Below, one piece after another: positions 39,391 to 56,612 of a stretch of DNA of 56,612 nucleotides. Position numbers and translations under genes: made by a program. This stretch comes from Geobacter sp. (GTDB taxonomy: Bacteria; Desulfobacterota; Desulfuromonadia; Geobacterales; DSM-12255). The notes beneath the pieces are model-generated. The model worked only from the letters and a program-made list of their open reading frames with translations, made no database searches and was not told the DNA's origin. Every line of letters begins with the position of its first letter. Position 1 is the stretch's first letter. The stretch covers positions 1 through 56,612 of the forward strand of contig VFJK01000158.1 of assembly GCA_009886125.1 (NCBI GenBank), given 5' to 3'.

Positions 39391-41019
39391 TTATAAAGTC
39401 TTGCTCAGGATATCCACTATAAACACGACCTCTCCATCGCCAAGAACGGTTGCACCGCTGAGCCGTTCGAATGCAGAGAGCGGCCTTGGAAGGGGTTTCA
39501 CAAAAACCTCATGATTCCCCAGGAGCCGGTCAACCTTCACCCCGATCTTGCGCCCCTTTATCTCGGCAATAAAGATCGGGGACGTATCTTTGTTTTGAGC
39601 GCCTGTATCAATATCAAGAATAGTACTCAAAGAGACAACTGGAACCATACCTTCATCAAGGAAGAAAACCTCTTCATCATCTATCAAGGCAATCTCGTCG
39701 CTTTTCAACTCCAGAGTACGCTCTACAGCAGTAAGCGGCACAGCAAGAGTCAGCTTGCCGGCCGTCACAAGAAGGACATTTATTATCGCTACCGTAAGCG
39801 GAAGCCGAAGGACAAAAGTTGAACCTTTCCCGGTCTCAGACTCTATCGACATCGATCCGCTCAAGGACTGGATGGTCGTTCTGACCACATCCATCCCTAC
39901 CCCCCGACCGGAGATGCCGGTTACTTTTTCTGCCGTCGAAAACCCGGGATGACAGATCAGAAGGAGTTTTTCCTCTACGGAAAGGGAAGATGCTTTTTCT
40001 TTCGGGATAAATCCTTTAGCCACTGCAACTGAGGCTATCTTGTCAGGATCGATACCTCTCCCGTCATCCTGCACCCTGATCTCGACCTGGTCCTTGTCCC
40101 GTGCAACTGAAATACTGACCCTTCCGGTCGAGACCTTGCCGATTGCCTCCCGCTCCGAAGGTGTTTCAATGCCGTGATCCAGAGAGTTCCGCAAAATGTG
40201 CGCCAGAGGATCCCCCAGAAGCTCCAGAATGCTCCTGTCCAGCTCTATCTCGACACCGGACATGGAGAATGTGACCTCTTTGCCCGATTCCCGGGCAAGA
40301 TCACGGATCATTCTGGGGAAGCGCTCCGTGATCAGCGAAAGGGGTATCAGCCTTACTGCCATGACCTGATCATGAAGCTCCCGGATATACTTTCCGAGTG
40401 ACTCCATCGCTTCGGAAAAATCTCTGTTACGGAGCGATTTTGAGGTCATGGAGAGTCGGTGCTTCACCGTTACAAGCTCTCCGGTAGTCTGCAGCAAACG
40501 GTCAAGAACCGTAGTCTTGATTTTTACCGTCTGCTGAAAAACCGGAGATTCACCTCTTGCAGCGAGCGGCGTTTCGATGCCGGCTGTTCCCACTTCATCA
40601 CGGGCATCCGCAACAGCTGACGCACTCTCTGAAGCTGTTCTGTCTGAAGGATCATACGCGGCAATCTTCGCAAGGAGATCCGCTGTATCCCTTCCAGCGC
40701 CAGTGCCGTTTTCTATGTCGTCTACCATGGAAGAGAGTGCGGATTCACCGGAAAGAAGGATGTCAAACAGGGCGGCGTCTACGTCAAGACCCTGCCTTAC
40801 CCTGTCCATAAGATTCTCCATCCCGTGGGCAAGCTCTGCGATCTGCTTGAAGCCCATCGAAGCGGCCATACCTTTTACGGAGTGGGCAGACCTGAAGAGA
40901 GAATCAATAGTCGCACGGTCTTTATGATCTGACTCAAGAACGAGAACGAGCTCCGATATACTCTTGAGATGCTCGCGCACCTCACTGATAAACAGGTCAT
41001 GATATTGGCTCATGTCCAC
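39391..41019 (-). CDS. cheA: CheA-type chemotaxis histidine kinase
   Basis: A 542-residue kinase without the P2 response-regulator docking domain. P1/HPt has the phospho-His in LFRSAHSVKGMAASMGF (His46), followed by an Ala/Ser-rich linker (125-165). P3 dimerisation lies at about 165-235, then the P4 ATPase (HILRNSLDHGIE, VQDDGRGID, GRGVGMDVV, GSTFVLRLPLT) and the P5 CheW-like domain (from about 405). The start is GTG with GGAG eight bases upstream; an ATG two codons later lacks this spacing. Absence of P2 means CheY docking differs, and no CheY gene is in the cluster. It follows cheW after 21 bases. Confidence 0.96.
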   Translation of the reverse strand: MDMSQYHDLFISEVREHLKSISELVLVLESDHKDRATIDSLFRSAHSVKGMAASMGFKQIAELAHGMENLMDRVRQGLDVDAALFDILLSGESALSSMVDDIENGTGAGRDTADLLAKIAAYDPSDRTASESASAVADARDEVGTAGIETPLAARGESPVFQQTVKIKTTVLDRLLQTTGELVTVKHRLSMTSKSLRNRDFSEAMESLGKYIRELHDQVMAVRLIPLSLITERFPRMIRDLARESGKEVTFSMSGVEIELDRSILELLGDPLAHILRNSLDHGIETPSEREAIGKVSTGRVSISVARDKDQVEIRVQDDGRGIDPDKIASVAVAKGFIPKEKASSLSVEEKLLLICHPGFSTAEKVTGISGRGVGMDVVRTTIQSLSGSMSIESETGKGSTFVLRLPLTVAIINVLLVTAGKLTLAVPLTAVERTLELKSDEIALIDDEEVFFLDEGMVPVVSLSTILDIDTGAQNKDTSPIFIAEIKGRKIGVKVDRLLGNHEVFVKPLPRPLSAFERLSGATVLGDGEVVFIVDILSKTL

Positions 41020-41040
41020 TGCGATTACTCCAATGGCAAC

Positions 41041-41451
41041 TTATAATACAAAAGACTTTTCCATGGAATCGACAAGCAGTTCAACGTCAAGGAGTTCAGC
41101 CGTGCCGTCCGCCAGTTGAATAGTCGTGGCTCCCGGCTCGAATGAGAGGATTTCATCGCCAGAGATCATTCGCTCCATCTGCTCGACAACTATGGCCAGC
41201 AAAGTCTCCGGCATCTTGAGCAGGAGCAGGTTGCACCCCTTCTTTACCGGACCTGTACCGACATACATCGAAAGATCAAAGACCGCCGCAAGCTTCCCGT
41301 GGATATTGACCACGCCGCGCAAAAACCTCGGTGCCTGCGGGATGGGATACTCAGGCAGCATCTCCGATATCTCACCCAGATAATCGACATTCACGGCATA
41401 GCGCAGGCCGCCTGTTGTAAAAAGCATGTAACTGGATGCAGGGCTATTCAT
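41041..41451 (-). CDS. cheW: CheW-type coupling protein
   Basis: A 136-residue single CheW domain that links the MCP to CheA. It begins [21 protein letters not shown], then [21 protein letters not shown] (noted for RGVVNIHG), and [11 protein letters not shown]. The ATG overlaps the end of the MCP gene by eight bases, so the two are translated together. It is full length and has no extra domain. Together with the MCP and CheA it completes a minimal signalling array. Confidence 0.95.
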
Positions 41452-42727
41452 ACTCTACCGGCAGGTCCTCCGGCAGTCTGAATCTCTCGGCAGTCTTTAA
41501 CAGTGCCGACGAAAGGATTGCAAGTTCCCGACTGGCAGCAGCCATCTCCTGCATCGCTGCTGACTGTTCCTCGGTAGCCGCAGATACCTGCTCTGTTGAA
41601 GCAGCATTATCCTCAGCAACTTTTGCGATCTCGTCAATAGCCCTTACTACCTTCTGAGCACCCTCACTCTGCATGCTGGAGAGATCTGCAATACTGTTAG
41701 CCTTACGCTCAGCCTCCATAACGGTCTGGACAATCGACTGAAAAACCTCCGCAGTACTGTTGATCTTCTTCTTCCCCTCATTTATCTGCCGTGAGCTTGA
41801 AGCGAACGTATCTCTGACCTTGACACTGTCCTCCTTGATCAGGGAGACGAGATCGATAATCTCGGAAGCAGAACGGCTGGTACCGTCTGCAAGCTTGCGG
41901 ACCTCCTCGGCAACAACGGTGAACCCTTTTCCGTACTCGCCGGCACGTACCGCCTCGATAGAAGCATTGAGCGCCAGCATGTTCGTCTGGCGTGCGATCT
42001 CGACGATGATATCAGCGATCTTCCCCACCTGCTGGAGCTTGCCGTTCAGTTCGGCAAACTGCTGTCCGGTGTACTCGACATTATTGAGGAACTCTTTCAT
42101 AAGCTCCATAGTCTGCTTCGCCAGATCAGTCCCCTGCTGTGCAGTTGCAGTAGTATCACGCGCAGACTGAGAAGACTCTTTCGCTCTTTTTGCGACAAGC
42201 TCGACAGATACAGCCAGCTCATGGATCAAGGTGGATCCTCTTCCTGACATCTCCGCCTGTACCTCTGCGCCATGAGAGATCTGCTCCAGCGCCTTGGCAA
42301 TCTCTTCCGTAGTTGCATTGACCTCAAGAGTCGAAGACGAGAGAGTCCGTGCAGATTCGGTGACCTGCCCGGATGCCGAGCGGATCTGGCTAACGAGCCC
42401 CCTCAAATTTTCAACCATCACATTTATGGAGCTGGCAATGGCAGTTGTCTCGTCAGGAAAGCGGTTTGACTTCACCTCAATATCATGGGAAAGATCCCCG
42501 TCACTGATCGCCTCCATTGAAGAGGTGATCTTTCCGATGTTCTTGCTGAGCCTTTTCGTAAGGATCCAGCCAAGCAGAAGACCGGTCGTGAGTGCTACCG
42601 CATAGGCAAAGACATTGGTCATCTCCTGAGAGTAACCAAGAGCAATTACCATAGCAGGGGAAAATGCCACTGCAGCGACAACGACTACAATACCAAGGAT
42701 GAATTTATACCCGATCGGAATGAACAA
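41444..42727 (-). CDS. Methyl-accepting chemotaxis protein with almost no periplasmic domain
   Basis: A 427-residue MCP. Two TM segments (about 9-30 and 38-57) enclose a loop of under ten residues (GYSQEMTN), so there is no periplasmic sensor. A HAMP domain (about 58-110, [23 protein letters not shown]) leads into the signalling helices. The kinase-control tip is [38 protein letters not shown]. Methylation helices are present ([12 protein letters not shown]). Sensing must come from the membrane, the HAMP region or a partner. The start is TTG with a strong AAGGAGG. Confidence 0.95.
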
Positions 42728-44656: not shown

Positions 44657-47106
44657 GCAGATGCTCCCTTGCGGGCGGTGACAAGGACCTTTCCTACGGG
44701 AGCTTTTTTCTTCTGGATTACCGGCTCAACCCCAGTAGGCCGGGAAAAAGGATCGCTTTCGAGGGCCACCTTGAAAACTTCTTCCACCTCTCTGGCAGTG
44801 ATGACTTTGATTTTTTTGAGTATCGCTTTTGGGATGTCGACAAGATCCTTTTCGTTCTGGGCAGGTATGATAACCGTCTTTATCCCCCCCCTGATGGCTG
44901 CAAGAATCTTCTCTTTGAGTCCTCCGATAGGCAGTACTTTCCCTCTCAGGGTGATCTCTCCGGTCATAGCCACATCTTTGCAGACCGGTGTCTTGGTAAG
45001 TGCCGACACAAGAGCTGTCGCCATGGTTATCCCCGCAGAAGGACCGTCCTTCGGAATCGCTCCGGCAGGGACATGCACATGTATCTCGATACTCTGGAAA
45101 AGATCATCTGACAGGTTCAGCTCCTTGCCTTTCGAGCGGATCCATGACAACGCGGCCTGGACAGACTCCTTCATGACATCGCCCAGTTGACCGGTAAGGA
45201 TCAATCCACCCTTGCCGCTCATTATTGTCGCTTCGATATGGAGCGTCTCTCCGCCTACCGGAGTCCAGGCAAGCCCTGTTACAAGACCGATTTCGTTTCT
45301 GTCGGTTTCAGGCTCCCGGATGAATTTCGGCGGACCAAGGTACTTGTTGACATTGGCAGCATTTATCATGAAACGCCGGGTTTCACCTTCTGCCACCTGC
45401 CGGGCAATCTTTCTGCAGATGCTCCCGATTTCACGCTCCAGATTCCTGAGCCCCGCCTCTCTGGTATAGCTGGAGATAAGCGCCCTTATCGCTTCATCCG
45501 TGAAGGTTATATGCCTTCCAGAGATGCCGTTATCACTCGTCTGACGAGGGACAAGGTATCTTTTTGCTATCTCCAGCTTCTCCTCTTCCGTATACCCGGA
45601 GAGATTGATAACCTCCATCCGGTCAAGCAGCGGCCCGGGAATCGTATCCACCTGATTGGCAGTTGCTATGAACATGACGTTTGAAAGATTGAACGGCAGA
45701 TTGATGTAATGGTCCGAAAACATGTAATTCTGTTCCGGATCGAGCACCTCTAAAAGTGCCGAAGACGGATCGCCCCGGAAATCAGACCCGAGCTTGTCGA
45801 GTTCATCGAGCATGAAGACAGGGTTGTTCGTTCCTCCCTGCTTCAGACCCTGAATGATCCTTCCGGGCAGGGCTCCCACATATGTACGCCTGTGGCCGCG
45901 GATCTCCGCCTCATCCCGCATCCCGCCGAGTGACATCCGGACGAACTTGCGCCCCATTGCCCTGGCTATCGACTTGCCAAGTGATGTTTTGCCGACACCC
46001 GGAGGACCGACAAAGCAGAGTATCGGCCCCTTCATCTTCTTTCTCAGCTTGCGGACCGCCAGGAACTCCAGAATCCGCTCCTTGATCTTCTCCAGACAGT
46101 AATGGTCCTCATCGAGGATCACCTGCGCTTTTTTGATATCAAGCGAATCACGAGTAGTCCTGCTCCAGGGGATCTCAACCATCCAGTCCAGAAAAGTCCG
46201 TAGCATCCCGGACTCAGCCGAATCCGGGTGCATCTGTTCAAGGCGTCCGAGCTGCTTGAGCGCCTCCTTTTCTATACTCTTAGGCATCTTCGCATGCTCG
46301 ATCGCCTTGCGGATTTCGATCATCTCCTCAGAGCGCGAATCGGTCTCGCCCAGTTCATGCTGAATTGCCCTGAGCTGCTCCCGGAGGTAATACTCCTTCT
46401 GGCTTTTCCCCATCTCCTCCTTTGCGGCTGTCTGTATCTTGGCCTGCATGCTGAGGAGTTCATGCTCCTTGGCAAGCAGTTCATTGACCCGATTGAGCCG
46501 TGCGACAGGATCGGTCAGTTCAAGAATTCCCTGAGCCTCTTCGACCTTCAGCCCTATGTTGCTTGAGATAAGATCGGCAAGGCTGCCGACATCCTGCATG
46601 TTTTCGACAATTACGACAACTTCCGGAGAGACTGCTTTCCCCAGTGCGATGATCTTTCCAAGCTGATCTTTTACAGACCTGACCAGCGCCTCAATCTCCA
46701 GAGAATCCTCAGGTGCCGGAGGCTCAATGATCCGGTCTATTTTCACCTCATAAAATGCATCGACCGTCTCATAGGATATTATCCGTGCCTTCGCAAGCCC
46801 CTGGACAAGTATTTTCACACGACCGTCCGGAAGCTTCAGCATCCTCATTATCATCGCCACGGTGCCGACCTGATAGATCGCATCCGGGGTCGGTTCATCG
46901 TCCCCCACATCCTTCTGGGTAGCAAGAAAGATCAGCCTGTCGCCGGCGAGTGACTTGTCAACGGCGCTGATTGACATCTCACGCCCGACGAACAGAGGAA
47001 GGATCATGTACGGATAGACGACTACATCCCTCACGGGAAGAAGTGGCAGCATGTCCGGGATCTTAAGCTCTTCACTCTCCTGAACCGGATCAATTGATAG
47101 TTCCAT
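44653..47106 (-). CDS. lon: ATP-dependent Lon protease
   Basis: An 817-residue AAA+ serine protease that degrades damaged and regulatory proteins. Order: substrate-binding LON domain ([24 protein letters not shown], residues about 18-210), coiled region, Walker [16 protein letters not shown] and Walker [13 protein letters not shown], and protease domain with catalytic [15 protein letters not shown] (Ser in GPSAG) and the Lys in [23 protein letters not shown] precedes the ATG. It lies 29 bases after the small heat shock gene and opens a long minus-strand run of overlapping or closely spaced genes. A quality-control protease next to a small heat shock protein is a natural pair. Confidence 0.97.
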
Positions 47107-47135
47107 GTATCACTCCTTAAACTGAAAGCATATTT

Positions 47136-47543
47136 TCAGGGATTACGTCTCGGCACCCGAACCGATAGCACACCACGTTCATAAACCGACTGCATCTGTC
47201 CCGGGTCAAAACAGGAAGGGACTTCGATCGTGCGGGAAAAACGTCCGAAATGCCTTTCCAGACAGAGGTAACTCATTACAGAGTCAGACTTGTCGTGCCG
47301 CTTGAACCCTTCTATCCTGATCGACAATCCCACAACACTCACGCAGAAATCATTTTCAGAAGAGCCCGGAAGATCGAGTTCGATCACAAAAAAACCAGCG
47401 CCCTCATAGACATCGACAAGGGGAGAGAATTCGTGCAGCGCCATCCCATGATCTCTCATATGGAAGATGTGGTTGAACATCTCATCCATATACTGACGGA
47501 AAACTGATATCCATGCGGCTGAATCGTTTGGTTGAGGCGCCAT
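47136..47543 (-). CDS. Small heat shock protein (Hsp20/alpha-crystallin)
   Basis: A 135-residue chaperone holding unfolded proteins. The ATG at 47543 (MAPQPND) has GGAG five bases upstream; a TTG 12 codons earlier lacks a ribosome site. The alpha-crystallin domain runs from about residue 40: PLVDVYEGAGFFVIELDLPGSSENDF, GLSIRIEGFKR, FGRFSRTIEVPSCFDPGQ and the family motif GVLSVRVPR. It is just upstream of lon, a linkage that suits joint stress induction; I saw no convincing heat-shock promoter. Confidence 0.93.
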   Translation of the reverse strand: MAPQPNDSAAWISVFRQYMDEMFNHIFHMRDHGMALHEFSPLVDVYEGAGFFVIELDLPGSSENDFCVSVVGLSIRIEGFKRHDKSDSVMSYLCLERHFGRFSRTIEVPSCFDPGQMQSVYERGVLSVRVPRRNP

Positions 47544-47679
47544 GTCCTCTCCGGAGGAGTATGCCAGATCTGTAGTCAACAGCGTAATCGCTTACTGAAG
47601 ATTTAATCATCTTTCCTTTGAAAGTCAAGGCAATCCGCCTTCATTTGACCGCTGCCAACCCCCTTCTGAGTCTAATTAA

Positions 47680-47708
47680 TTGAACTTTTCACCTTATCCG
47701 TGTATTAT
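47680..47708 (+). promoter_or_regulatory. Promoter of the TPR protein gene
   Basis: TTGAAC (47680-47685), a 17-base spacer and TATTAT (47703-47708) lie 86 bases before the TPR gene. The leader contains ACCGG-CTAA-CCGGT (47722-47735) followed by four T, a short hairpin that could attenuate. Confidence 0.6.
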
Positions 47709-47794
47709 TTCTTACTTCGTGACCGGCTAACCGGTGTTTTCAGCTGTTTAGAAGTCATTATCCATGCAAGAACAGGCATCAGGGGCTCTGATAT

Positions 47795-49705
47795 ATGAAA
47801 AAAATAGTACTGTACCTAATGATGGCATCCTTGACCACGGGCTTCACATGGGGCAAGACCGGCTCTGAAAAATGCGAAGAGGCGAAACAGCTTGCTCTAG
47901 GAATGGTTTCCACAACTCCCCGGGAGAGCATCAGCAGTATGGTAGATTCAATAAGACAGTTATGCCCGGAAGGAGCGGCAGGACAGTATATCAACGGATT
48001 CGGCTCTGAAGTCGCCGGGAACCCCGCCCGGGCAATACAGTCATACAAGGAGGCGCTCCGCCTTGACCCTGACTTTGCACCGGCAAGCGGAAGACTCGGG
48101 CTGCTCTACCTTGAGACCGCACTTGAAGATGATGCAACCCTGGAGTTGACCCGTGCCGTCCGCAGCCATCAAGACCCTCTTTATCACAAAGCGCTGGCGA
48201 GTATCTTCAAAACAAGAAAACTTTACTCTCTTGCCATATACCATAACAGTGAAGCGGTGAAGCTCAGCCCGACAAACACGACCCTGATCTCTGCGCTTGC
48301 CGAAACCTATAGAGAAGCCGGGCAGACAGGAAAAGCCGAAGAAGCATATCGCCGGGCAGACTCACTGAAGCCGGGAGACCTGGAATCCCTTAAAGGACTT
48401 GCTTCGACCTATTCGTTATCCGGGCAGTACGATAAAGCGCTGGAAACCCTCAAAAAGGCCGAGGCTGCGGCTCCGCTTGACAAGGATGTTCATCGCCTTA
48501 AAGCTGATACCTACCTGAAAAAAGGTGACACTGCCAACGCCGAGACCGAGTACATACTGGCCGGCATGCAACCATCCAGGTCTTCAATAAAACCGGGAAG
48601 CGGCGATGTTTTTACGTCAAACAAAGATTTCGATAAAGCGATCGAGGCCTACCGGGATGAGATCTCCATGAACCCGGAAAACGCCGAACTCCGCGAGAAA
48701 CTGGGCAATGCGCTGAAGGCTGCAGGCCGTGACGATGATGCCATCGCTGCATACCGGGAGGCTTTTCGGCTGAAGGCTGACAATCAGGATCTTCACTACA
48801 ATCTCGCTATGCTCTACGAGAAAAAAGGACTGCATGATGAAGCTGTCGTGGAGTACAAGCAGGCGTTGGCTCACGGCGAAAATACCGACGTGAGGTATCG
48901 CCTCATCGATATCTACACACAGAGAGGGAGCCATCAGCAGGCAACCGAACAGTATCGGATCCTTCTCAAGGTAAACCCCGCCGACCAGGCCCTCCTGATG
49001 AAGCTCGGCAGGACTTACGTTACTGCCGGCAGCACAAAGGACGCTATCGCCACTTTCCGCGAGATTACCCGGATCAATCCTGACAACCTTGAAGCCCATA
49101 AAGAGCTGGCATCTCTTTACAAAAAGGGTAATCAGCAGGATGAGACCGAAAAAGAGTACCGTGAGATCATCCGGATAAAAAAGGATGACATGGAGACAAG
49201 GAACGCTCTCACTTCAATCTATGTGAAGAGAAAAAGCTACCCGGAACTTATTGCCCTGCTGAAAGAGAACGTGGAGATGGCTCCGAATGACTCAAACCAT
49301 CACTACAAACTTGGACTGGTCTACGAATTCCAGAAAGAGTATGAAAATGCTTCGGCAAGCTATCTTGAGTCGATCAAGCTGAAGGATGACAATGCAAAGA
49401 CCCTGAATGCTCTCGGCCGGGTCAACATGAAGACAGGCCGTATAAAAGAGGCAAAAGAGTATCTTGAAAAGGCAAAGGCAGCTGACCCGAACATGGAGGA
49501 GGCATCGCTCCTGCTCAGCAATATAAAGGATGAGCTGGCGCCTGACCCGTCGAAATACAAGAAAAGTAAAAAAGGGAAGAAGTCCAAGAAAGGCAAGACT
49601 ACCAAGAAGAGTACCAAGAAAGGCGCTGCAAAGAGCCCCTCAAAAAGCCCCACAAAGACCGTTAAAAAGCCGGCGGCAAAACCGGCTTCAGGGGCGGGGC
49701 AGTAG
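47795..49705 (+). CDS. Secreted tetratricopeptide-repeat protein with Lys-rich tail
   Basis: A 636-residue exported protein. A signal peptide (KKIVLYLMMASLTTGFTWG) is followed by about a dozen TPR repeats from residue 55 to 570, each 34 residues with the A-x3-Y/A-x11-P pattern (NPARAIQSYKEALRLDPDFAP; KALETLKKAEAAAP; AIATFREITRINPDN; AKEYLEKAKAADPN). The last 65 residues are almost only Lys, Ser, Thr, Pro and Ala (KKSKKGKKSKKGKTTKK), strongly basic and disordered. TPRs bind proteins; the tail may bind polyanions such as polysaccharide or nucleic acid. It is single-gene, with its own promoter. No strong Shine-Dalgarno is seen before the ATG; GGGGC is at about ten bases. Confidence 0.8.
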   Translation: MKKIVLYLMMASLTTGFTWGKTGSEKCEEAKQLALGMVSTTPRESISSMVDSIRQLCPEGAAGQYINGFGSEVAGNPARAIQSYKEALRLDPDFAPASGRLGLLYLETALEDDATLELTRAVRSHQDPLYHKALASIFKTRKLYSLAIYHNSEAVKLSPTNTTLISALAETYREAGQTGKAEEAYRRADSLKPGDLESLKGLASTYSLSGQYDKALETLKKAEAAAPLDKDVHRLKADTYLKKGDTANAETEYILAGMQPSRSSIKPGSGDVFTSNKDFDKAIEAYRDEISMNPENAELREKLGNALKAAGRDDDAIAAYREAFRLKADNQDLHYNLAMLYEKKGLHDEAVVEYKQALAHGENTDVRYRLIDIYTQRGSHQQATEQYRILLKVNPADQALLMKLGRTYVTAGSTKDAIATFREITRINPDNLEAHKELASLYKKGNQQDETEKEYREIIRIKKDDMETRNALTSIYVKRKSYPELIALLKENVEMAPNDSNHHYKLGLVYEFQKEYENASASYLESIKLKDDNAKTLNALGRVNMKTGRIKEAKEYLEKAKAADPNMEEASLLLSNIKDELAPDPSKYKKSKKGKKSKKGKTTKKSTKKGAAKSPSKSPTKTVKKPAAKPASGAGQ

Positions 49706-49780
49706 ACCGGCTGCCAAACTCGGATGATTAGCTGTGCTTTTATAGCCTGACAGACAGGGACTCATGGTCAACTAATCAAC

Positions 49781-49796
49781 AACGTTCCCCTTAGCC
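49781..49796 (+). repeat. Direct repeat flanking the DUF6364-PIN pair, left copy
   Basis: AACGTTCCCCTTAGCC. A copy with a single difference lies at 50562-50577, on the other side of the TA pair. The 781-base spacing encloses exactly one promoter and the two genes, like a cassette. Confidence 0.6.
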
Positions 49797-49810
49797 TTCC
49801 CGCAACAGAG

Positions 49811-49863
49811 TTGACATTAATAAAAAAGTGACGTATGTTTATAACAAAAATATACGTCACTTT
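49811..49863 (+). promoter_or_regulatory. Promoter and 12-base inverted-repeat operator of the DUF6364-PIN pair
   Basis: TTGACA (49811-49816), 17 bases and TATGTT (49834-49839). Perfect inverted copies of AAAGTGACGTAT (49825-49836 and ATACGTCACTTT at 49852-49863) flank 15 bases and cover the -10, as expected for autorepression by the antitoxin. Confidence 0.75.
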
Positions 49864-49880
49864 AGTTTTTGGAGACTGCC

Positions 49881-50123
49881 ATGCAAACCAAACTGACTCT
49901 TCGCCTAGAAGATCAATTAATCGAACAGACAAAATCTTACGCAGCACGGGCGGGGAAATCAGTTTCGCAGATTGTTGCGGAATACTTCAAACTACTGACC
50001 TCTCAAAAGGTCAAATCAAACTCTCCTTCAACACCAATAACTCAATCACTTCGAGGATTATTGCGGGAATCAAAGCTTGGTGAAAAGGATTACAAAAAAT
50101 ATCTGGAGGGGAAACACCTTTGA
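49881..50123 (+). CDS. DUF6364-type antitoxin
   Basis: An 80-residue protein. MQTKLTLRLEDQLIEQTKSYAARAGKSVSQIVAEYFKLL is a ribbon-helix-helix-like DNA-binding start (noted for KLTLRLEDQL and GKSVSQIVAEYF), as in DUF6364 proteins paired with PIN toxins. The C-terminal part (SLRGLLRESKLGEKDYKKYLEGKHL) resembles the segment that blocks a PIN active site. ATG 49881 has GGAG six bases upstream; a TTG four codons earlier is less suited. The toxin gene overlaps its stop codon (TTGA). Confidence 0.85.
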   Translation: MQTKLTLRLEDQLIEQTKSYAARAGKSVSQIVAEYFKLLTSQKVKSNSPSTPITQSLRGLLRESKLGEKDYKKYLEGKHL

Positions 50124-50539
50124 AAATACTTCTGGATACTAACATAGTCCTCGATCTGTTGATGGACCGAATGCCATTCGCGGATGTGGCAGCAGAACTG
50201 TTCTCAAAGGTGGAAGACGGGACCATCATCGGATATTTGTGTGGGACTACAATAACGACCGTATATTATCTTGCAGCAAAATCGGTAGGTGCACCAGGAG
50301 CCCAGGAAGAAATAAAAAAACTGCTGAGTCTATTTGAAGTGGCGCCTGTTAACAGACATGTTCTCGAATCAGCGCTAGTCGCCGGTTTTAGCGATTTCGA
50401 AGATGCTGTAGTCCATGAAGCAGCTTGTCATGTCGGAGCTGAAGCCATCGTTACCCGCAATCAAAAGGACTTCAGGAAATCCAGGATACCGGTTTATTCC
50501 TCGGAAGAGATGGCAAAAATACTGGCATCAAAAAAGTAG
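50120..50539 (+). CDS. PIN-domain ribonuclease toxin (VapC-like)
   Basis: A 139-residue PIN protein. Acidic metal ligands: Asp in KILLDTNIVLDLL, Glu/Asp in FSDFEDAVVHEAACHVGAEAIVTRNQKDFRK (noted for DFEDAV and TRNQKDF). The cleavage target is likely tRNA or rRNA, as for other VapC toxins. Starts at TTG overlapping the antitoxin stop. The SIPVYSSEE-type end (RIPVYSSEEMAKIL) is the usual C-terminus. Length and ligands are intact, so it should be active. Confidence 0.92.
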   Translation: MKILLDTNIVLDLLMDRMPFADVAAELFSKVEDGTIIGYLCGTTITTVYYLAAKSVGAPGAQEEIKKLLSLFEVAPVNRHVLESALVAGFSDFEDAVVHEAACHVGAEAIVTRNQKDFRKSRIPVYSSEEMAKILASKK

Positions 50540-50561
50540 TGCATGGCAGGAATGAAGCCAT

Positions 50562-50577
50562 AACGTTCCCCTCAGCC
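50562..50577 (+). repeat. Direct repeat flanking the DUF6364-PIN pair, right copy
   Basis: AACGTTCCCCTCAGCC, one base different from the left copy at 49781. Its end overlaps the left arm of the inverted repeat at 50575. Confidence 0.6.
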
Positions 50578-50636
50578 ATTTTTCGTTACTGAAGCAGCAT
50601 TGTTTGGGCTGAGCGAAGCAGCTTAAGAAAAATGGC
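50575..50636. repeat. Inverted repeat with internal direct repeats downstream of the PIN gene
   Basis: GCCATTTTTC (50575-50584) and GAAAAATGGC (50627-50636) are perfect inverted arms 42 bases apart. The interior has two direct GAAGCAGC copies (50591-50598 and 50615-50622). The structure could be a terminator-like element or a recombination site. No T run follows on either side. Confidence 0.65.
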
Positions 50637-50671
50637 AGAAAGTCAAGACCCCATATTGGCCTATAGAGAAA

Positions 50672-51055
50672 TTAGCTGGAAGCTTGAATCTTGGCGGCCA
50701 TCTGGGACACGTTGATGACGACGTATTTGTAAGATTGATGCTTAATGCTTCTGAAGCTGGTAATAAGTTCGTGTTCGTCGTCTGAAGTAAAGGGATGAGG
50801 CGGATCGGCTATCAGAAGATTTTCGGGGTTGAAGAAAAAAGTTACCGGCACTTCAAGCACTTCTGCAAGCGTTTGTATGTTTTCCACATTAAGCTTGTTG
50901 GTTCCATTCTCATAGCGCTGGATTTGTTGATATGTCACATCCAGTCGCTCAGCCAGATTTTCCTGAGACATTCCCAGCGCCATCCGGCGCAATTTGATTG
51001 CCCTTCCGATCTCCTTGCTTGAAATAAATTTTGTTGACCTCTCATTGGATTGCAT
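50672..51055 (-). CDS. Cro/CI-type XRE transcriptional regulator
   Basis: A 127-residue DNA-binding protein. Residues 14-72 form an HTH_XRE domain (IGRAIKLRRMALGMSQENLAERLDVTYQQIQRYENGTNKL, noted for MSQENLAERL and YQQIQRYENG). The tail (residues 75-127, VPVTFFFNPENL, ELITSFRSI) may be a dimerisation or ligand part, as in phage-type and PfgR-like regulators. It is divergent from a three-gene exported-protein operon, and a 24-base palindrome lies on that operon's -10. It probably represses that operon; whether it also autoregulates is unclear. ATG 51055 lacks a clear ribosome site. Confidence 0.9.
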   Translation of the reverse strand: MQSNERSTKFISSKEIGRAIKLRRMALGMSQENLAERLDVTYQQIQRYENGTNKLNVENIQTLAEVLEVPVTFFFNPENLLIADPPHPFTSDDEHELITSFRSIKHQSYKYVVINVSQMAAKIQASS

Positions 51056-51113
51056 GGCGCTGACTATACCAGATGGCTACCATAGCAACTACCTCTCCAA
51101 AAGTATCAATTTC

Positions 51114-51150
51114 TTGACCTGCACAATTTAAAAGTGTATACACCTTTAAA
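51114..51150 (+). promoter_or_regulatory. Promoter with 24-base palindromic operator for the exported-protein operon
   Basis: TTGACC (51114-51119), 17 bases and TATACA (51137-51142). A near-perfect palindrome covers 51127-51150: outer TTTAAA ends, centre GTGTATACAC and a single mismatched pair. It overlaps the -10 and would be the binding site of the adjacent XRE regulator. Confidence 0.75.
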
Positions 51151-51193
51151 TCTACTTTAATGAAAATTTATGACAATAAGGAGGGGCTACGCC

Positions 51194-52504
51194 ATGTTAT
51201 CCCGCCTGGCAGTTATCCTGACATTCCTTACCTTATCCTGGTCTTCTTTCCCTTTCTCAGCCCACGCCGATGATGAGCGCCCGAATGTTGCCTATACCGG
51301 CGTGTATCTGATGGGAAACGCGCAGACAAAAGATAAATTTCCCGTTTATACCCGAAACCAGACCAAGCTACGCGACGCCCTGAAGATTGAGATGGAGAGA
51401 GTCAACGGGCAAGGAAAACTCCCCTTCAATCTGCTGTTCAACACCGACATGGAAGAAATTAAGCAGCGCATCGACAACACCCTTTCCCTTGCGTTCGTGA
51501 TGGTGCGAGACGACATAAGTGCCGAGAGCTTCAGCGCTGTCGGGACCACTATCAACAAGACCATCATAAACGTAGGGCTTACAGCAATTCTCTACGATAC
51601 ACGTAAGATTGACGGAAAAGATCGCAATACGGTGGTCTTCTCATTTCCTCTGGTTGGCTACTCCCAACGTCTCGACGGGGACAAAAAGTGCAGCGCGGCT
51701 GACATCGATGCACTCTTTGTTGAGAGCGCCGCCTCAACCGTGCGTGAGCATCTACTTAAACGCCTTGCCGGGGCCAAACTATCCGACATTTTTGGCGAGG
51801 TAGCAGACAGCACATCTGGAACCGCTACTGTGAGCATCGGCAGCACCAACGGCATTGAAGATGGCCAGAACATTCTGTTCATAATTGACGGTAAAAAGGT
51901 TGCCTCCGGCACGATTATCAAACTCGAAAAGAATAGCGCGCTTGTCGAGTTGCCAAAGGGCTTCAAAGCGCAGACAGGAATGAAGATAAAGACCACTAAT
52001 ATGAGGGCTTCGTCGGATGAAACCTTTCAGGTTGTTGAAGTAAAGGTAAGCTCCAAAAAGGCAGCCAAGTATTTCCCTCCGGAAGTGGTCGGACCACAGG
52101 CAGCGCAATGGTTCTCGAATTTCCTGACTGATCGTGGCGGCAAAGTAGTTCTGCCGTCGCGGGTGGGCGGTGAATGGGATCAACGCGCCACCGGAACAGC
52201 CTTCAGCCTGATTGACCGTGCAGGCATAGAACATCAATTTGAGCTCCCACCCCCTAAATACCCAGTGACGCTGGATATTACCGGCATTGCCAGCAAAGTG
52301 ACTGACAGTAACGATGTCAATGACATTTGCATGTTCAAGGCGTGGATGAAGGTCAGTATCCCGAGTAAAAAATATGAAAAAGAGTTCGACATATTCACTT
52401 CCAAGTCTCTCATCAAAGGGGTGCAGAGCTTTGAAGAGAAGAATGAACTATTTGATCTGCTGTATCAGTTGACGGCAAAAATTGCGAGGGAGGCTGAAAT
52501 ATGA
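51194..52504 (+). CDS. Exported protein of unknown function, with FlgT C-terminal-like segment
   Basis: A 436-residue protein. The ATG at 51194 is chosen because AGGAGG lies nine bases upstream; an earlier in-frame ATG would put that site inside the gene. Signal peptide LSRLAVILTFLTLSWSSFPFSAHA, cleavage near residue 25. Residues about 30-160 look like a CsgG/TolB-type alpha/beta domain (RPNVAYTGVYLMGN, LSLAFVMVRDDI, VVFSFPLVGYSQRL). Residues about 205-265 (ATVSIGSTNGIEDGQNILFIIDGKKVASGTIIKLEKNSALVELP) resemble the FlgT C-terminal SH3-like fold, noted for STNGIEDGQ. The last part (270-436) is unassigned. Overlaps the next gene (ATGA). Not a described family that I can name. Confidence 0.65.
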   Translation: MLSRLAVILTFLTLSWSSFPFSAHADDERPNVAYTGVYLMGNAQTKDKFPVYTRNQTKLRDALKIEMERVNGQGKLPFNLLFNTDMEEIKQRIDNTLSLAFVMVRDDISAESFSAVGTTINKTIINVGLTAILYDTRKIDGKDRNTVVFSFPLVGYSQRLDGDKKCSAADIDALFVESAASTVREHLLKRLAGAKLSDIFGEVADSTSGTATVSIGSTNGIEDGQNILFIIDGKKVASGTIIKLEKNSALVELPKGFKAQTGMKIKTTNMRASSDETFQVVEVKVSSKKAAKYFPPEVVGPQAAQWFSNFLTDRGGKVVLPSRVGGEWDQRATGTAFSLIDRAGIEHQFELPPPKYPVTLDITGIASKVTDSNDVNDICMFKAWMKVSIPSKKYEKEFDIFTSKSLIKGVQSFEEKNELFDLLYQLTAKIAREAEI

Positions 52505-54186
52505 AGCATGTGCTCTTCAAGGTTCTCGTTGTGGCAGGGGTTTTGTCTTCGCTCTGTGGGCAGATATTTGCGGCTCAATCGGTAATAGCAGTTGGGCGGG
52601 CTGATATCGTTGGCTCAAATAAAGATGGTGCCAGAAACATTGCCCTAACAAACGCTTTTCGTGAAGCAGTTGAAAAAGGAATAGGCGTATGGGTGCAAAG
52701 CCAGACTGAGGTCAAGGATGCCGCGCTGGTGAAGGATCAAATCCTGACTCGTGCCGAAGGGTATGTAACTGAGCATGAGATCGTGAAAGAAAAAATCGAA
52801 GACAATCAGCTTGTTGTAACAATTAAAGCTCAGGTGGCAGTAGACAAAATTGGTGCTGACATCAAGTCACTGGTCGGCAGAGTCTCAACAGCAATGGGCA
52901 ATCCATCGATCACTTTTGTGCTCACGACATGGGAAAAGCGGGGGGCGCAAGGTTCTTCAAGTAAAACCGATTCAGTAGATATTTCAGCAAAGGCTGATTC
53001 AAAATCCAGTTACGATGTCGCTGACGATTCAAGTGCCAGCGCTTCTGCCAGTGCTTCCTTGAGCGCAAGGGAAAAGGCATCTTCAGATTCAAGTGTATCT
53101 ACTCGTGAAAAAGCAGCTGTAGCATCTAGGGGCAAATCATCACAAAGTAGCGCCGGTTCCGCCAGCGGACGTGTTTCGGCTGATGGTCAATATGCTGAAG
53201 GCGATGGTAATGTGTCTGGCAGAATGGGCTACGCCGCATCTGGACAGCAGTCATCAGCCCAATCAGGTAGCATGTCAGCATCTGGAAAGAGCGCTTATGA
53301 CGGCTCTGCAAAAACAAATAACTCTGCTTCTTATGAAGGTGATGTCAACTCAAGCAATACTCAATCTTCAAAATCTAAGTCGAAAGGGAGCGACAACTCT
53401 TCTGCTTCCGTGGATGCAAGTACTAAGGTCAAGCAGGACAGTTCCTATTCAAAGATTGATGAGGATATTTGGGTTAAATACCCTGACACCACAATCATTG
53501 ACTCCTTCAATCAGGAGTTTAAAGAGAAGAGCTTTAAACTCAATGCTGGTGACAAAGCCCGCGAGATTGCCTTGTCAAAATCCATCAAGGAAACTTTCGT
53601 CAACCCTTTTGATCGCAGTGCAGTCAGGCAGGCAGCAGAAAAAGAAGGTGTTAATTTTGTTGCCCGTGGTGAAGTGAAGATGCTTGATACCATGGTTTCT
53701 GAGAGTACTGGCAATACTGAAGTGACATCTGAAGTCGGCGTTGAAATAATTGATGTGGCTTCTGGAGAGATAGTTGCTGCATATCGGAATACGGTAACTG
53801 CGGGAAGCAGTAGACCAATGGAGGCTAAGTCACAGTCAATAAAAAAAGTCGCTATCCTTGCAGCACGGACATTGGCAAATCAGACCATAGAAACCTGGCA
53901 GAATGCTTCATTAAATGGCAGGGAATACACGGTAGAGGTCAGAAATATCAAGAGCAAACGCTCTCAGGAACGCCCGATTTTGAATGCTCTTGAGGCGCTT
54001 GGCTCTATATCGGGGACAACCAATCCGCAAGCATCAACACTACTGGTTAAGCTTCAGTTTAAGGGGCAAAAAAAGAAACTCGAAGACGGCATTCTTGATC
54101 AGCTTGGTTCAAAACCAGGCTTCTCTGAAAAGGAATTTGATGGCCCCGATACCGTAGACGGCAAGATCGTTTTCACATTCAAATAG
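52501..54186 (+). CDS. Exported FlgT N-terminal-like protein with a large Ser-rich insert
   Basis: A 561-residue protein. Signal peptide HVLFKVLVVAGVLSSLCGQIFA. Residues 27-125 resemble FlgT N-terminal/LPP20-type domains (VIAVGRADIVGS, DGARNIALTNAFREAVEKG, YVTEHEIVKEKI). A second alpha/beta domain begins at PSITFVLTTWEKR (135-147), is interrupted by a 168-residue Ser/Ala/Gly/Lys-rich stretch (151-318), and resumes at IWVKYPDTTIIDSFNQEF. It ends in another beta-rich part (VEVRNIKSKRSQERPILNALEALG). The insert has no stop or frameshift and would be an exposed, disordered loop. ATG overlaps the previous stop. Envelope location is inferred. Confidence 0.65.
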   Translation: MKHVLFKVLVVAGVLSSLCGQIFAAQSVIAVGRADIVGSNKDGARNIALTNAFREAVEKGIGVWVQSQTEVKDAALVKDQILTRAEGYVTEHEIVKEKIEDNQLVVTIKAQVAVDKIGADIKSLVGRVSTAMGNPSITFVLTTWEKRGAQGSSSKTDSVDISAKADSKSSYDVADDSSASASASASLSAREKASSDSSVSTREKAAVASRGKSSQSSAGSASGRVSADGQYAEGDGNVSGRMGYAASGQQSSAQSGSMSASGKSAYDGSAKTNNSASYEGDVNSSNTQSSKSKSKGSDNSSASVDASTKVKQDSSYSKIDEDIWVKYPDTTIIDSFNQEFKEKSFKLNAGDKAREIALSKSIKETFVNPFDRSAVRQAAEKEGVNFVARGEVKMLDTMVSESTGNTEVTSEVGVEIIDVASGEIVAAYRNTVTAGSSRPMEAKSQSIKKVAILAARTLANQTIETWQNASLNGREYTVEVRNIKSKRSQERPILNALEALGSISGTTNPQASTLLVKLQFKGQKKKLEDGILDQLGSKPGFSEKEFDGPDTVDGKIVFTFK

Positions 54187-54223
54187 CCTCATTTGGCTAA
54201 ATTCAACATTGGGAGGAAATAAC

Positions 54224-54946
54224 ATGAAACGGATTATCAGTCTGGTTGTTTTTGTGGTGATGCTGGCAGCAGGGCTTCAGGCATTTGGCTGGGGATTGCC
54301 TAGTGTTGGCGGTGACGACAAGAAGGAGAGCGGTGCAAAGGTCGATGTAAAAGCGCTAACGGCTCGTGAAGCTAAGATAAAAATCAGTGTAAACATGGCA
54401 ACCGAATCTCTTGCTGAAGGTTTAGTTCAAATTCAAAAGGCATGCGGCATGGCAGCTGAAGCAGCTAAGTTGCAGGCACTTATAGAGGAAGCCAAGAAAA
54501 ATCCGGCTGACATCGAACTAACCAAAAAGCTGGCAAAGGCAGTTGACGAGGCGAGCGAAGCGCTTAAAAAAGTTGATATGGCAGCGACCATGAACAAGGA
54601 AGAAGGTCGTAAAAACCTCGGCAAGTCCTTGCTTAACCTTGGTGCGGGCTCTTTGCTTGACCTGAAGGCTTCCAACGAAGCCAAAGGTTTGGTGACCGAC
54701 ATCACCAATAGTATTAAGACTGTTCAGGCTTCGCCTATGACATACGGAGCGTCGGCAGTGAAAGATCTGAATTCAGGCTTGAACACTGCCAAGTTTGTTG
54801 CCGAAACTATGCCCGGCCAGATCAGCACCATCGCTGACCTGACAAAAGGACTTACCAAATATGCCCAGACGAACAAAATAGAGTTACCGTCACAGAAGGA
54901 AATGGAGACGCAGGCAGCAAATATGGCGAAGCCTATTGATAACTAG
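54224..54946 (+). CDS. Exported alpha-helical protein of unknown function
   Basis: A 240-residue protein. GGAGG eight bases before ATG 54224 decides the start. Signal peptide KRIISLVVFVVMLAAGLQAFGWG. After a Gly/Asp/Lys-rich linker (SVGGDDKKESGAK) the rest is mainly helix: KALTAREAKIKISVNMATESLAEG, then KLAKAVDEASEALKKVDMAATMNKEEGRKNLGKSLLNLG, and a C-terminal helix (KGLTKYAQTNKIELPSQKEMETQ). Coiled-coil-like heptads suggest an oligomeric or partner-binding rod. It is the last gene of the operon; a strong terminator follows. I recognise no family. Confidence 0.65.
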   Translation: MKRIISLVVFVVMLAAGLQAFGWGLPSVGGDDKKESGAKVDVKALTAREAKIKISVNMATESLAEGLVQIQKACGMAAEAAKLQALIEEAKKNPADIELTKKLAKAVDEASEALKKVDMAATMNKEEGRKNLGKSLLNLGAGSLLDLKASNEAKGLVTDITNSIKTVQASPMTYGASAVKDLNSGLNTAKFVAETMPGQISTIADLTKGLTKYAQTNKIELPSQKEMETQAANMAKPIDN

Positions 54947-54997
54947 CTGTAATTTAACTGCCAGTTCCAGCTCAATTAACAAAATCGTTTACCAGAG

Positions 54998-55037
54998 ACA
55001 AAAAGCCCTGCTTCCATCCGGAAGCAGGGCTTTTTGT
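54998..55037. terminator. Strong intrinsic terminator after the exported-protein operon
   Basis: An 18-base perfect stem (54998-55015 with 55020-55037) and four-base loop. Flanking A and T runs (AAAAAGCCC, GGGCTTTTTG) allow action in both directions, although the next minus-strand gene ends further on, at 55124. Confidence 0.94.
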
Positions 55038-55123
55038 AGTAACCGTTGGATTACAATGCTGCAACATGTAAAACGCAAAGGTGTGAGGCTGCTAAAGAAG
55101 GATCAATGTAATTTGTTGGCTAA

Positions 55124-55528
55124 TTAAAGCGACTCGAGAAATTCTGCAACGCTCTGAATTATGATGGAATAACTGTTCTCAGGAGAATTCATAAACGGCC
55201 CGAAATGCTTGATATCAACCGTAAGCAGATGGGTTGCCCGGCAGGTAACAGCGGCCTGAAAGATTGCTTCATCCTTTTCGGCCAAGTCAGGAGGGAATGG
55301 CGAAGATGGATTTACCGGCGTGATGGTTATCTGTTCCAGCAACTTTTCAAGCTGTGGGACGAATGCGGGATATTTGGACGAAAGATTGCGGAAAGCCTCT
55401 TCGCGGGCATACGCGCTGGTGAAGAGCATAAAATGACCGGCGGCTCCCAACTCAATGACAAAGGCCGCCTTGCCGTTCGGATTGTGGGCAGCAGTGAAAA
55501 GAATATTGGCATCAAGAAATATGCGCAT
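55124..55528 (-). CDS. PIN-domain toxin (VapC-like)
   Basis: A 134-residue PIN protein. Metal-binding residues: MRIFLDANILFTAA (Asp), EEAFRNL (Glu), LAEKDEAIFQAAV (Asp), and THLLTVDIKHFGPF (Asp). It is distantly related to the PIN toxin at 50.1 kb and arose separately. The ATG shares a base with the antitoxin stop (TGATG). A ribonuclease acting on tRNA or rRNA is expected for this class. It completes a second, independent PIN-type TA pair in the window. Confidence 0.9.
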   Translation of the reverse strand: MRIFLDANILFTAAHNPNGKAAFVIELGAAGHFMLFTSAYAREEAFRNLSSKYPAFVPQLEKLLEQITITPVNPSSPFPPDLAEKDEAIFQAAVTCRATHLLTVDIKHFGPFMNSPENSYSIIIQSVAEFLESL

Positions 55529-55779
55529 CAGGGTTGGGCTGAGAGCCTCGTTAGTACAGCGGCACGGTCATCGGCAGAAAGCCTGTCCGACTCATCCCAC
55601 GCAGCAATCTGGGCATCGGAATACATCTCGATCTCCAGTACCGCAGCCGGTTTGATGACCATTTCATTATCCCTCTCCTCAAGGATAACCGCGCCGCCAT
55701 GACTGAGTCCGAACCGCTTGCGCATGTTGGCGGGCAATGTAAGCTGGCCTCGGTCTGAAACAATAACTGTTTGGCGCAT
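55528..55779 (-). CDS. AbrB/MazE-type antitoxin (VapB-like)
   Basis: An 83-residue antitoxin. Residues 1-48 are an AbrB swapped-hairpin DNA-binding domain (VIVSDRGQLTLPANMRKRFGLSHGGAVILEE, noted for RGQLTLPANMRKRFG). The helical tail (YSDAQIAAWDESDRLSADDRAAVLTRL) would neutralise the PIN toxin. GGAGG seven bases before the ATG; this ribosome site partly overlaps the first of two CTGAATTTCAG operator palindromes, so antitoxin binding could also hide the site on DNA or block the polymerase. Confidence 0.92.
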   Translation of the reverse strand: MRQTVIVSDRGQLTLPANMRKRFGLSHGGAVILEERDNEMVIKPAAVLEIEMYSDAQIAAWDESDRLSADDRAAVLTRLSAQP

Positions 55780-55790
55780 AAAGATACCTC

Positions 55791-55817
55791 CTGAATTTCA
55801 GAATGACTGAATTTCAG
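55791..55817 (-). promoter_or_regulatory. Two palindromic operators before the AbrB-PIN pair
   Basis: Perfect 11-base palindromes CTGAATTTCAG occur at 55791-55801 and 55807-55817, 16 bases centre to centre. They lie between the antitoxin start and mqnD, the place expected for autorepressor binding. A further partial copy is not seen. Confidence 0.75.
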
Positions 55818-55824
55818 TAATTCG

Positions 55825-56612
55825 TCAACACTTTCCACGCGGCAGTAGCCCGGCGGCCACGCCTCTTTCCATAAGCATCGCTACCGCCCGTCGCCCTTCA
55901 TCACCAAGGTCGCGGGAGAAATCATTCACATACAGACCGATATGAGCGTCACAGACCGCATCGCTCATCTCCTGCGAATGCGCCCTGATGTATTCCCGTG
56001 GCGCCTCAGGATTGGCAAAGGCATGGTCGATGCTCGCCGCTATCAGCTTCCCCAGCGTATCGATGACTTCCTTCCCCAGAGCAGTTTTCGCCACTATGCC
56101 GCCCAGCGGTATCGGACAGCCGCTGTCAGCCTCCCACCACTCGCCAAGATCGACCAGTTGCTGTAGTCCAGACTCCCTGAAGGTAAATCGTGACTCGTGG
56201 ATTATCACCCCGGCAGCGACCTCGCCTGAAACAACAGCAGGCATGATCCGGTCGAACGGCATGGAGACGAGATTGTCCAGCTGCGGGGCAAACAGGCGCA
56301 GCAGCAGTGCAGCGGTAGTATATCTGCCGGGAAGAGCAACCGGCTTATGGCGGAGAGAGGAGAGCTGACACGCTTCTCTGCTGACGAGAAGCGGCCCGCA
56401 GCCTCTTCCGAGTGCAGCGCCGGAGGGGAGCAGCGTATAGTCGCTCCGGATATGACCGTAAAGATGGAATGATACTTTCGTGACGTCAAGAGCTGCTGCA
56501 AGGGCATGCCGGTTCAGCTGTTCTACATCCATTAGCAGCTCGTTGAAGGATAGTCCATGAGTGTCAATCAGGCCCTTGACCAGAGCATGAAAGATAAAGG
56601 TATCATTCGGAC
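55825..56612 (-). CDS. mqnD: 1,4-dihydroxy-6-naphthoate synthase (futalosine menaquinone pathway), truncated by window edge
   Basis: The reading frame runs off the right edge; 262 residues are visible, beginning (C)PNDTFIFHALVKGLIDTHGLSFNELLMDVEQLNRHAL. The motifs PNDTFIFHAL, DVTKVSFHLYGHI, GAALGRGCGPLLVS and the C-terminal IHESRFTFRESGL are those of MqnD, which cleaves cyclic dehypoxanthine futalosine to dihydroxynaphthoate. Related MqnA lacks this N-terminus. The window does not show the other mqn genes. The presence of MqnD indicates menaquinone made by the futalosine route, as in Geobacter. Only about the first ten residues are missing. Confidence 0.93.
   Translation of the reverse strand, partial: PNDTFIFHALVKGLIDTHGLSFNELLMDVEQLNRHALAAALDVTKVSFHLYGHIRSDYTLLPSGAALGRGCGPLLVSREACQLSSLRHKPVALPGRYTTAALLLRLFAPQLDNLVSMPFDRIMPAVVSGEVAAGVIIHESRFTFRESGLQQLVDLGEWWEADSGCPIPLGGIVAKTALGKEVIDTLGKLIAASIDHAFANPEAPREYIRAHSQEMSDAVCDAHIGLYVNDFSRDLGDEGRRAVAMLMERGVAAGLLPRGKC

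Follow-up and report, generated by a model that had tools for sequence, protein, structure and literature searches.

We analyzed a 56,612-nt contig of Geobacter sp. (GenBank assembly GCA_009886125.1, contig VFJK01000158.1; this whole stretch is referred to here as the window) and identified an operon of three genes (genes 1 to 3) that is a real, conserved unit. On the basis of its domain matches, gene 2 encodes a protein of the FlgT/CsgG superfamily, and its two partners lack a family match. The operon is most likely a horizontally transferred three-gene cassette that moves between classes. Whether the products of this cassette form a periplasmic ring- or scaffold-like complex near the outer membrane is, in our judgment, evenly balanced.

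The genes were searched in a first set of 58 related genomes, in 277 genomes of the class, and in a sample of 395 genomes of the phylum. In the first set, searches with genes 1 and 3 each retrieved the window's own genome and no other, and gene 2 matched in 16 of the 58 genomes, mostly over its N-terminal part; 15 of these 16 had neither gene 1 nor gene 3. A scan of genome contigs with gene 1 retrieved a second copy of the operon in Geobacter sp. UBA9964 (locus L032; genes 1 to 3 at 70, 64, and 64% identity). Full-length gene 1 was detected with a two-row profile in 4 of the 277 class genomes, and blastp relatives of genes 2 and 3 adjoined it at all four loci. A profile of gene 3 refound the same four copies by construction (i.e., it was built from them) and detected no further full-length gene 3 among the 277 genomes. 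Each class search gave one extra partial match, in different genomes (E = 0.0098 for gene 1 and 0.0063 for gene 3). In the phylum sample, a genome of another class (G592) was found separately by the gene 1 and gene 3 profiles, neither of which includes it. Its genes 1 to 3 stand in the same order and show 39, 43, and 36% identity to those of the window. Further partial matches in this sample (one for gene 1 and two for gene 3) were located in other genomes. Weak partial matches (E = 0.002 to 0.01; G219, G065, G193, G439, G418, G257, G077, and G088) were not counted as operon copies, and G489 was taken as the same genome as L032, given that the 1 kb just upstream of gene 1 is identical. This left five operon genomes, represented by the window and by loci L032, L038, L039, and L079 (G592).

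The gene order and the 4-bp overlap between genes 1 and 2 were identical in all five. For each of the three genes, nonsynonymous difference (pN, 0.16 to 0.45) was lower than synonymous difference (pS, 0.69 to 0.86), with synonymous sites saturated in 11 of the 12 comparisons. An accidental association of the three genes was rejected on the basis of their co-occurrence in the class, the detection of G592 by both profiles, and the constant order. The original prediction had proposed a search for a conserved neighborhood of four genes, including a divergently transcribed XRE-type regulator. Genes 1 to 3 do recur as a unit amid different flanks in five genomes, but the regulator gene does not recur with them. 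No match was found for genes 1 to 3 in plasmids, for gene 1 in phages or viral contigs, or for positions 47000 to 56612 in Rfam.

The operon is located in a segment (49706 to 55824) with a G+C content of 46.8%, compared with 53.2% for positions 1 to 49705. The two genes that border this segment, a TPR gene and a menaquinone-biosynthesis gene, directly adjoin each other in two genomes of the same genus (G001 and G003) and in one of the same family (G005), while other genes lie between them in G002. The junction is a variable spot. In G004 and G008, it is occupied by a gene related to the hybrid kinase of the window (~25% identity).

The flanks of the operon differ at all five loci. They consist of toxin-antitoxin-like pairs on both sides in the window, a cytochrome and a TonB receptor at L032, an FG-GAP/RTX protein and an M1 peptidase at L038, and a type I restriction-modification set with a RhuM/Fic gene plus an HD/GAF protein at L079. 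At L039, the operon is preceded by a DUF7933/DUF11 protein, a tRNA-Pro, and a TIM-barrel gene. Gene 3 at that locus is followed by two more small genes (210 and 224 amino acids [aa]; no Pfam match), which were observed at none of the other operon loci. Very large open reading frames (ORFs) were present at three of the five loci at a distance of up to ~4.1 kb from the operon, each running off the end of the fetched stretch; they were counted after the loci had been viewed, with no background rate or control.

Table 1. Features of the operon, of its surroundings in the window, and of other operon loci where named
Feature	Position	Strand	Remark
Gene 1	51194..52504	+	Exported-looking, 436 aa; residues ~204-272 perhaps a small beta-barrel (weak)
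Gene 1/gene 2 overlap	52501-52504		4 bp
Gene 2	52501..54186	+	Exported-looking, 561 aa; FlgT_N at residues 28-112
Gene 2 middle domain, CsgG/PelC/LpoB-like	residues ~128-147 and 318-466		Linker at ~148-317 in between
Gene 2 C-terminal segment	residues 467-561
Gene 2-gene 3 gap	54187-54223		37 nt
Gene 3	54224..54946	+	Exported-looking, 240 aa; helical by sequence inspection; no family match
XRE/HTH_3 regulator	50672..51055	-	HTH_3, E = 1.5e-15; local neighbor of the operon
Palindrome, 26 bp	51126..51151	.	Candidate operator of the divergent XRE protein
Sigma70-like promoter, TTGACC-17 nt-TATACA	51114..51142	+	Consensus match only
Intrinsic-terminator-like repeat	54998..55037	+	Perfect 18-bp inverted repeat, 4-nt loop, T-rich 3' arm
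Segment between TPR and menaquinone-biosynthesis genes	49706..55824	.	Absent from three relatives
DUF6364 + PIN_3 toxin-antitoxin-like pair	49881..50539	+	Inside 49706-55824
MazE-type antitoxin + PIN_3 pair	55124..55779	-	Inside 49706-55824
TPR gene	47795-49705		Left neighbor of the segment
Menaquinone-biosynthesis gene	3' end at 55825	-	Right neighbor of the segment
Terminator-like stem	49825-49863		16 pairs, T-rich tail
Large ORF, L038	2-5953		FG-GAP/RTX
Large ORF, L039	3-5717		DUF7933/DUF11
Large ORF, L079	15482-19501		At least 1339 aa, no Pfam match
Two small genes, L039	12117-13484		After gene 3

Gene 1 most likely starts at the ATG at 51194, because the alignment of the orthologues begins there; an alternative start at 51170 was rejected for the same reason. 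In all 15 orthologous proteins (three genes in five genomes), the most hydrophobic 12 residues of the chain were those at the N terminus, and a simple regular expression found a lipobox in none of the 15. Given these two features, the products of genes 1 to 3 are probably free in the periplasm, export being called from N-terminal hydrophobicity and the lack of a lipobox from the regular expression. The layout that had first been described, i.e., an XRE gene diverging from three overlapping or nearly touching genes with exported-looking products, was thus borne out by the coordinates, the 4-bp overlap, the 37-nt gap, and the N termini.

The FlgT_N domain (PF16548) scored above the Pfam cut-off in all five gene 2 orthologues. 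The sole sequence match of the gene 2 profile in the PDB at E ≤1 was 9hmf_C (E = 3.4e-4; residues 44 to 116), which covers the stretch separating the helix from the strands that follow. The title of this entry in the table is just "Lipoprotein, putative," and we take it to be FlgP; Pfam gave no LPP20 match in gene 2. As described in PMC12222027, FlgP, Lpp20, and FlgT share a fold, an insert between the helix and the strands correlates with ring formation, and flagellar ring accessories such as FlgP are members of a broad protein family.

Behind the FlgT_N domain, Pfam detected neither FlgT_M nor a direct CsgG match in the gene 2 orthologues, and LpoB matched below the cut-off in one of them (E = 0.003). 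The middle domain did match a family from the same order, referred to here as A7 (hhalign, 96.3%; E = 1.5e-9), and of the four A7 members, three give a Pfam CsgG match at E ≤0.1, which exceeds the cut-off in one case. Both parts that had been foreseen for gene 2 are thereby supported, the N-like part directly and the middle-like part through the A7 family. A Ser/Ala/Gly-rich linker without Cys (27, 61, 95, 165, or 171 residues in the five orthologues) interrupts the middle domain at the same point in all five, after an apparent first strand. Pfam detected FlgT_C in none of the five orthologues (Pfam likewise fails to pick up the possible barrel in gene 1, and the gene 2 model is poor), and NCBIfam gave no match for genes 2 and 3. 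In a Foldseek search with the gene 2 model, the first match was FlgT (3w1e; E = 0.016; 63 columns), and PelC, GNA1162, LpoB, and CsgG were among the first 30. In VIA-align, PelC chains aligned to this model at Z = 5.6 to 6.6 (best root mean square deviation [rmsd], 4.1 over 100 residues), within the range (Z <8) for which the program warns that a match may mean merely a common arrangement. Families not listed by these fold searches were not taken as absent.

Conservation divides the gene 1 product into residues 27 to 203, a faster-evolving segment at 204 to 272 (23 to 59% identity to the window), and a conserved segment at 273 to 436 (48 to 84%). The central segment resembles the N-terminal barrel of V/F-ATPases (Z = 6.7; rmsd, 2.8; 62 residues), likewise within the common-arrangement range of Z <8. 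It also matched the proteins of loci L018 and L019 by profile comparison (E = 9.5e-5; 58.7%), ranking third of 66 comparisons, behind a true family match and a self-overlap. An FlgT_C/SH3-like barrel at residues ~204 to 272 nevertheless has weak support: L018 and L019 entered the analysis through their similarity to gene 1, so they are not an independent yardstick, and both match FlgT_C below the cut-off. Profile comparison of the first and last thirds of gene 1 with gene 2 and three related families gave nothing (best E = 0.044), and whole gene 1 scored a probability of 0.5% against gene 2 and 2.1% against a 345-aa CsgG-type protein encoded elsewhere in the window's genome (L030). In the model, the first segment has a strand-helix-strand-strand-strand-helix order that would fit a TolB/CsgG-type domain, which we take as a lead only. 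For both gene 1 and gene 3, Pfam gave chance-level matches only, and sequence searches of the PDB gave chance-level matches to unrelated proteins; NCBIfam gave one chance match for gene 1 (E = 0.11). The gene 3 product looks helical.

The original prediction had assigned middle and C-terminal parts of FlgT to gene 1 and had therefore read the operon as the FlgT plan split over two polypeptides. The gene 2 half of this proposal is supported. For the gene 1 half, the C-like barrel is weak, and the middle part is without sequence support and is suggested by the order of elements in a low-confidence model only, so "split FlgT" is too strong a description.

Among known proteins, FlgT (H-ring of Vibrio/Aeromonas; PF16548, PF16538; 3w1e) shares with gene 2 the FlgT_N domain found in all five orthologues and probably the CsgG-related middle, and there is a weak indication of its FlgT_C-like barrel in gene 1. 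Unlike in FlgT, the possible barrel is on the other polypeptide, gene 2 has no FlgT_C match and has a linker that varies from 27 to 171 residues, two extra partners are present, the set is rare, and the scanned neighbors included no flagellar structural gene. FlgP/LPP20 (Campylobacter basal disk; SHS2-like fold) resembles gene 2 through the match to 9hmf_C, whereas gene 2 is multidomain, lacks a lipobox in five of five orthologues by the regular expression, and has no LPP20 match. The PelC/CsgG/LpoB/GNA1162 group resembles the gene 2 middle through the A7 profile and the weak structural match. CsgG, LpoB, and GNA1162 are lipoproteins, and the products of the operon, with no lipobox in any of the 15 proteins by the regular expression, differ in this from an acylated pore protein such as the CsgG secretion channel. 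PelC is a lipoprotein as well, as stated in PMC12141448. Gene 2 departs further from this group in that FlgT_N precedes its middle domain and a low-complexity stretch is inserted into that domain.

The A7 family (L021, L023, L027, and L028) resembles gene 2 along most of its length (hhalign, 99.6%; E = 1e-24) but has no gene 1 or gene 3 relative at its loci, no long linker, and a common neighborhood of its own. In these four loci, the A7 gene (FlgT_N and/or CsgG matches) occurs in a common gene order, flanked by genes that are, from their N termini, presumably recA/pilT on one side and alaS on the other, and further large exported-looking genes come after it. Another cluster is present in the window's genome (L030, contig C183, 3928 to 9088), where a gene for a 406-aa protein with a subthreshold FlgT_N match is followed by the 345-aa protein, whose CsgG match is above the cut-off, and then by three exported-looking genes, one with an SLH domain. 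A similar cluster in G003 (L029) is without the 345-aa gene beside it.

The operon was also proposed to start with a palindromic operator and to end with a strong terminator, and both elements are present in the window as a 26-bp palindrome and a terminator-like repeat. The palindrome consists of two 13-nt arms (92% complementary) and overlaps the promoter-like TTGACC-17 nt-TATACA site. Its 24-base core gave 0 matches in 100 shuffles with up to 3 mismatches allowed, the pattern itself being derived from the sequence. A generic promoter/terminator scan had neither the TTGACC/TATACA site nor the 18-bp repeat among its entries, and its promoter-like sites were not in excess over shuffles. None of the other four operon loci yielded a relative of the XRE protein, and the palindrome core occurred in 3 of the 79 loci examined, all three representing the window's own stretch. 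XRE relatives were found in 17 of 57 other genomes searched; at five examined loci they adjoin other genes, with a weak upstream palindrome in L049 only. The idea of an XRE-controlled system was consequently rejected, since the regulator and the palindrome are not kept with the operon in the other four genomes. In the window's genome, it is plausible that the divergent XRE protein binds the palindrome overlapping the promoter-like site and so represses the operon, as a control that is not part of the conserved system. Directly behind the TPR gene, close to the left border of the segment, the window contains another terminator-like stem.

We propose that the products of genes 1 to 3 would be exported to the periplasm and assemble together near the outer membrane. 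FlgT_N and CsgG-related domains, the types present in gene 2, are known from proteins that form rings or associate with the outer membrane. The gene 2 product would form a ring or arc on the inner side of this membrane via its FlgT_N domain, the inserted segment of which has been linked to ring formation in FlgP and FlgT, and its Ser/Ala/Gly-rich loop may project from one face of the ring or into the lumen. The gene 1 product could cap or link the ring, with the helical gene 3 product as a peripheral or clamping subunit. Such a complex may serve surface export, envelope stabilization, or appendage support.

Several points weigh against this proposal. The cassette includes no outer-membrane barrel or lipoprotein, and there is no functional neighbor common to the five loci. 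Gene 1 outside its possible barrel, and gene 3, match nothing. The AlphaFold models, each built from a two-row alignment and that of gene 2 folded with its long linker, are poor (predicted local distance difference test [pLDDT], 46 for gene 1 and 39 for gene 2), and neither gave a Foldseek match at E ≤0.001. For the gene 2 model, Endonuclease V and other unrelated folds are also among the first Foldseek matches, and in VIA-align ferredoxin-like folds on the N domain score level with PelC. The ring itself is a suggestion taken from the types of domain.

An unlikely alternative is that the three proteins form an export funnel, i.e., a PelC/CsgG-like periplasmic collar for secreting a surface polymer or a giant surface protein. 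PelC is the best-matching ring protein for the gene 2 middle (the Z of 5.6 to 6.6 given above), and PMC12141448 describes it as a periplasmic 12-mer on the PelB barrel whose ring serves Pel export. The very large ORFs within ~4.1 kb of the operon in three of five genomes would suit such a role; these neighbors, however, differ from one another, were not seen at two loci, and come from a post hoc count with no control, and the cassette lacks a barrel, a synthase, and a lipoprotein.

Decidedly unlikely is a flagellar motor accessory, in which the three proteins would be an H-ring- or basal-disk-like addition to the flagella of some strains. Against it, 273 of the 277 class genomes have no full-length gene 1, gene 2 matches mostly occur without genes 1 and 3 (15 of the 16 genomes among the first 58), and a Pfam scan of 29 operon-neighbor proteins (not every neighbor) detected no flagellar structural gene. 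The domain content does point toward flagella, since FlgT and FlgP, which form rings around flagella (PMC7990780 and PMC4960245), are H-ring or basal-disk parts (PMC7990780, PMC4960245, and PMC12222027). FlgI was present in three of the four operon genomes tested (G592 was outside the four) but gave no match in the fourth, which is 85% complete. CheA-like and methyl-accepting chemotaxis protein genes are present in the window at 39394 to 42727, outside the acquired segment.

We are more doubtful still of a flagella-independent mobile outer-membrane ring machine, with a FlgT/FlgP-type ring bearing one Ser/Ala/Gly-rich loop of 27 to 171 residues per subunit. If this were true, the loops of the ring would make a soft mesh or brush and possibly a selective plug, with gene 1 as the cap and gene 3 as the clamp. 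Least probable is a mobile-island cargo for defense or competition at the envelope: the operon is sparse and mobile, lies between two toxin-antitoxin-like pairs in the window, and begins 256 bp after the type I restriction-modification set with the RhuM/Fic gene at L079, yet such neighbors were not seen at the other three loci, PADLOC gave no match for genes 1 and 2 and one weak partial match for gene 3 (E = 0.0047), the 25 PADLOC matches of the XRE protein were taken as generic HTH, PHROGs gave none, and no enzymatic or toxin-like domain was found.

A periplasmic complex encoded by a transferable cassette thus remains our preferred explanation. The domains of gene 2 are of known types; no description of the three-gene combination, of its maintenance as a mobile unit, or of the gene 1 and gene 3 families was found in the open-access literature on FlgT, CsgG, PelC, and related names, a search that was not directed at the operon. 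We rate the operon as a FlgT/FlgP-superfamily operon for which no flagellar structural gene was seen among the neighbors scanned. In our judgment, a movable set that combines FlgT_N with two partners lacking significant matches in Pfam and NCBIfam would be a tractable model for the roles of FlgP-type domains outside flagella. Since the operon moves between classes, these three genes may be all that their job requires, and it would therefore be testable in a laboratory strain.

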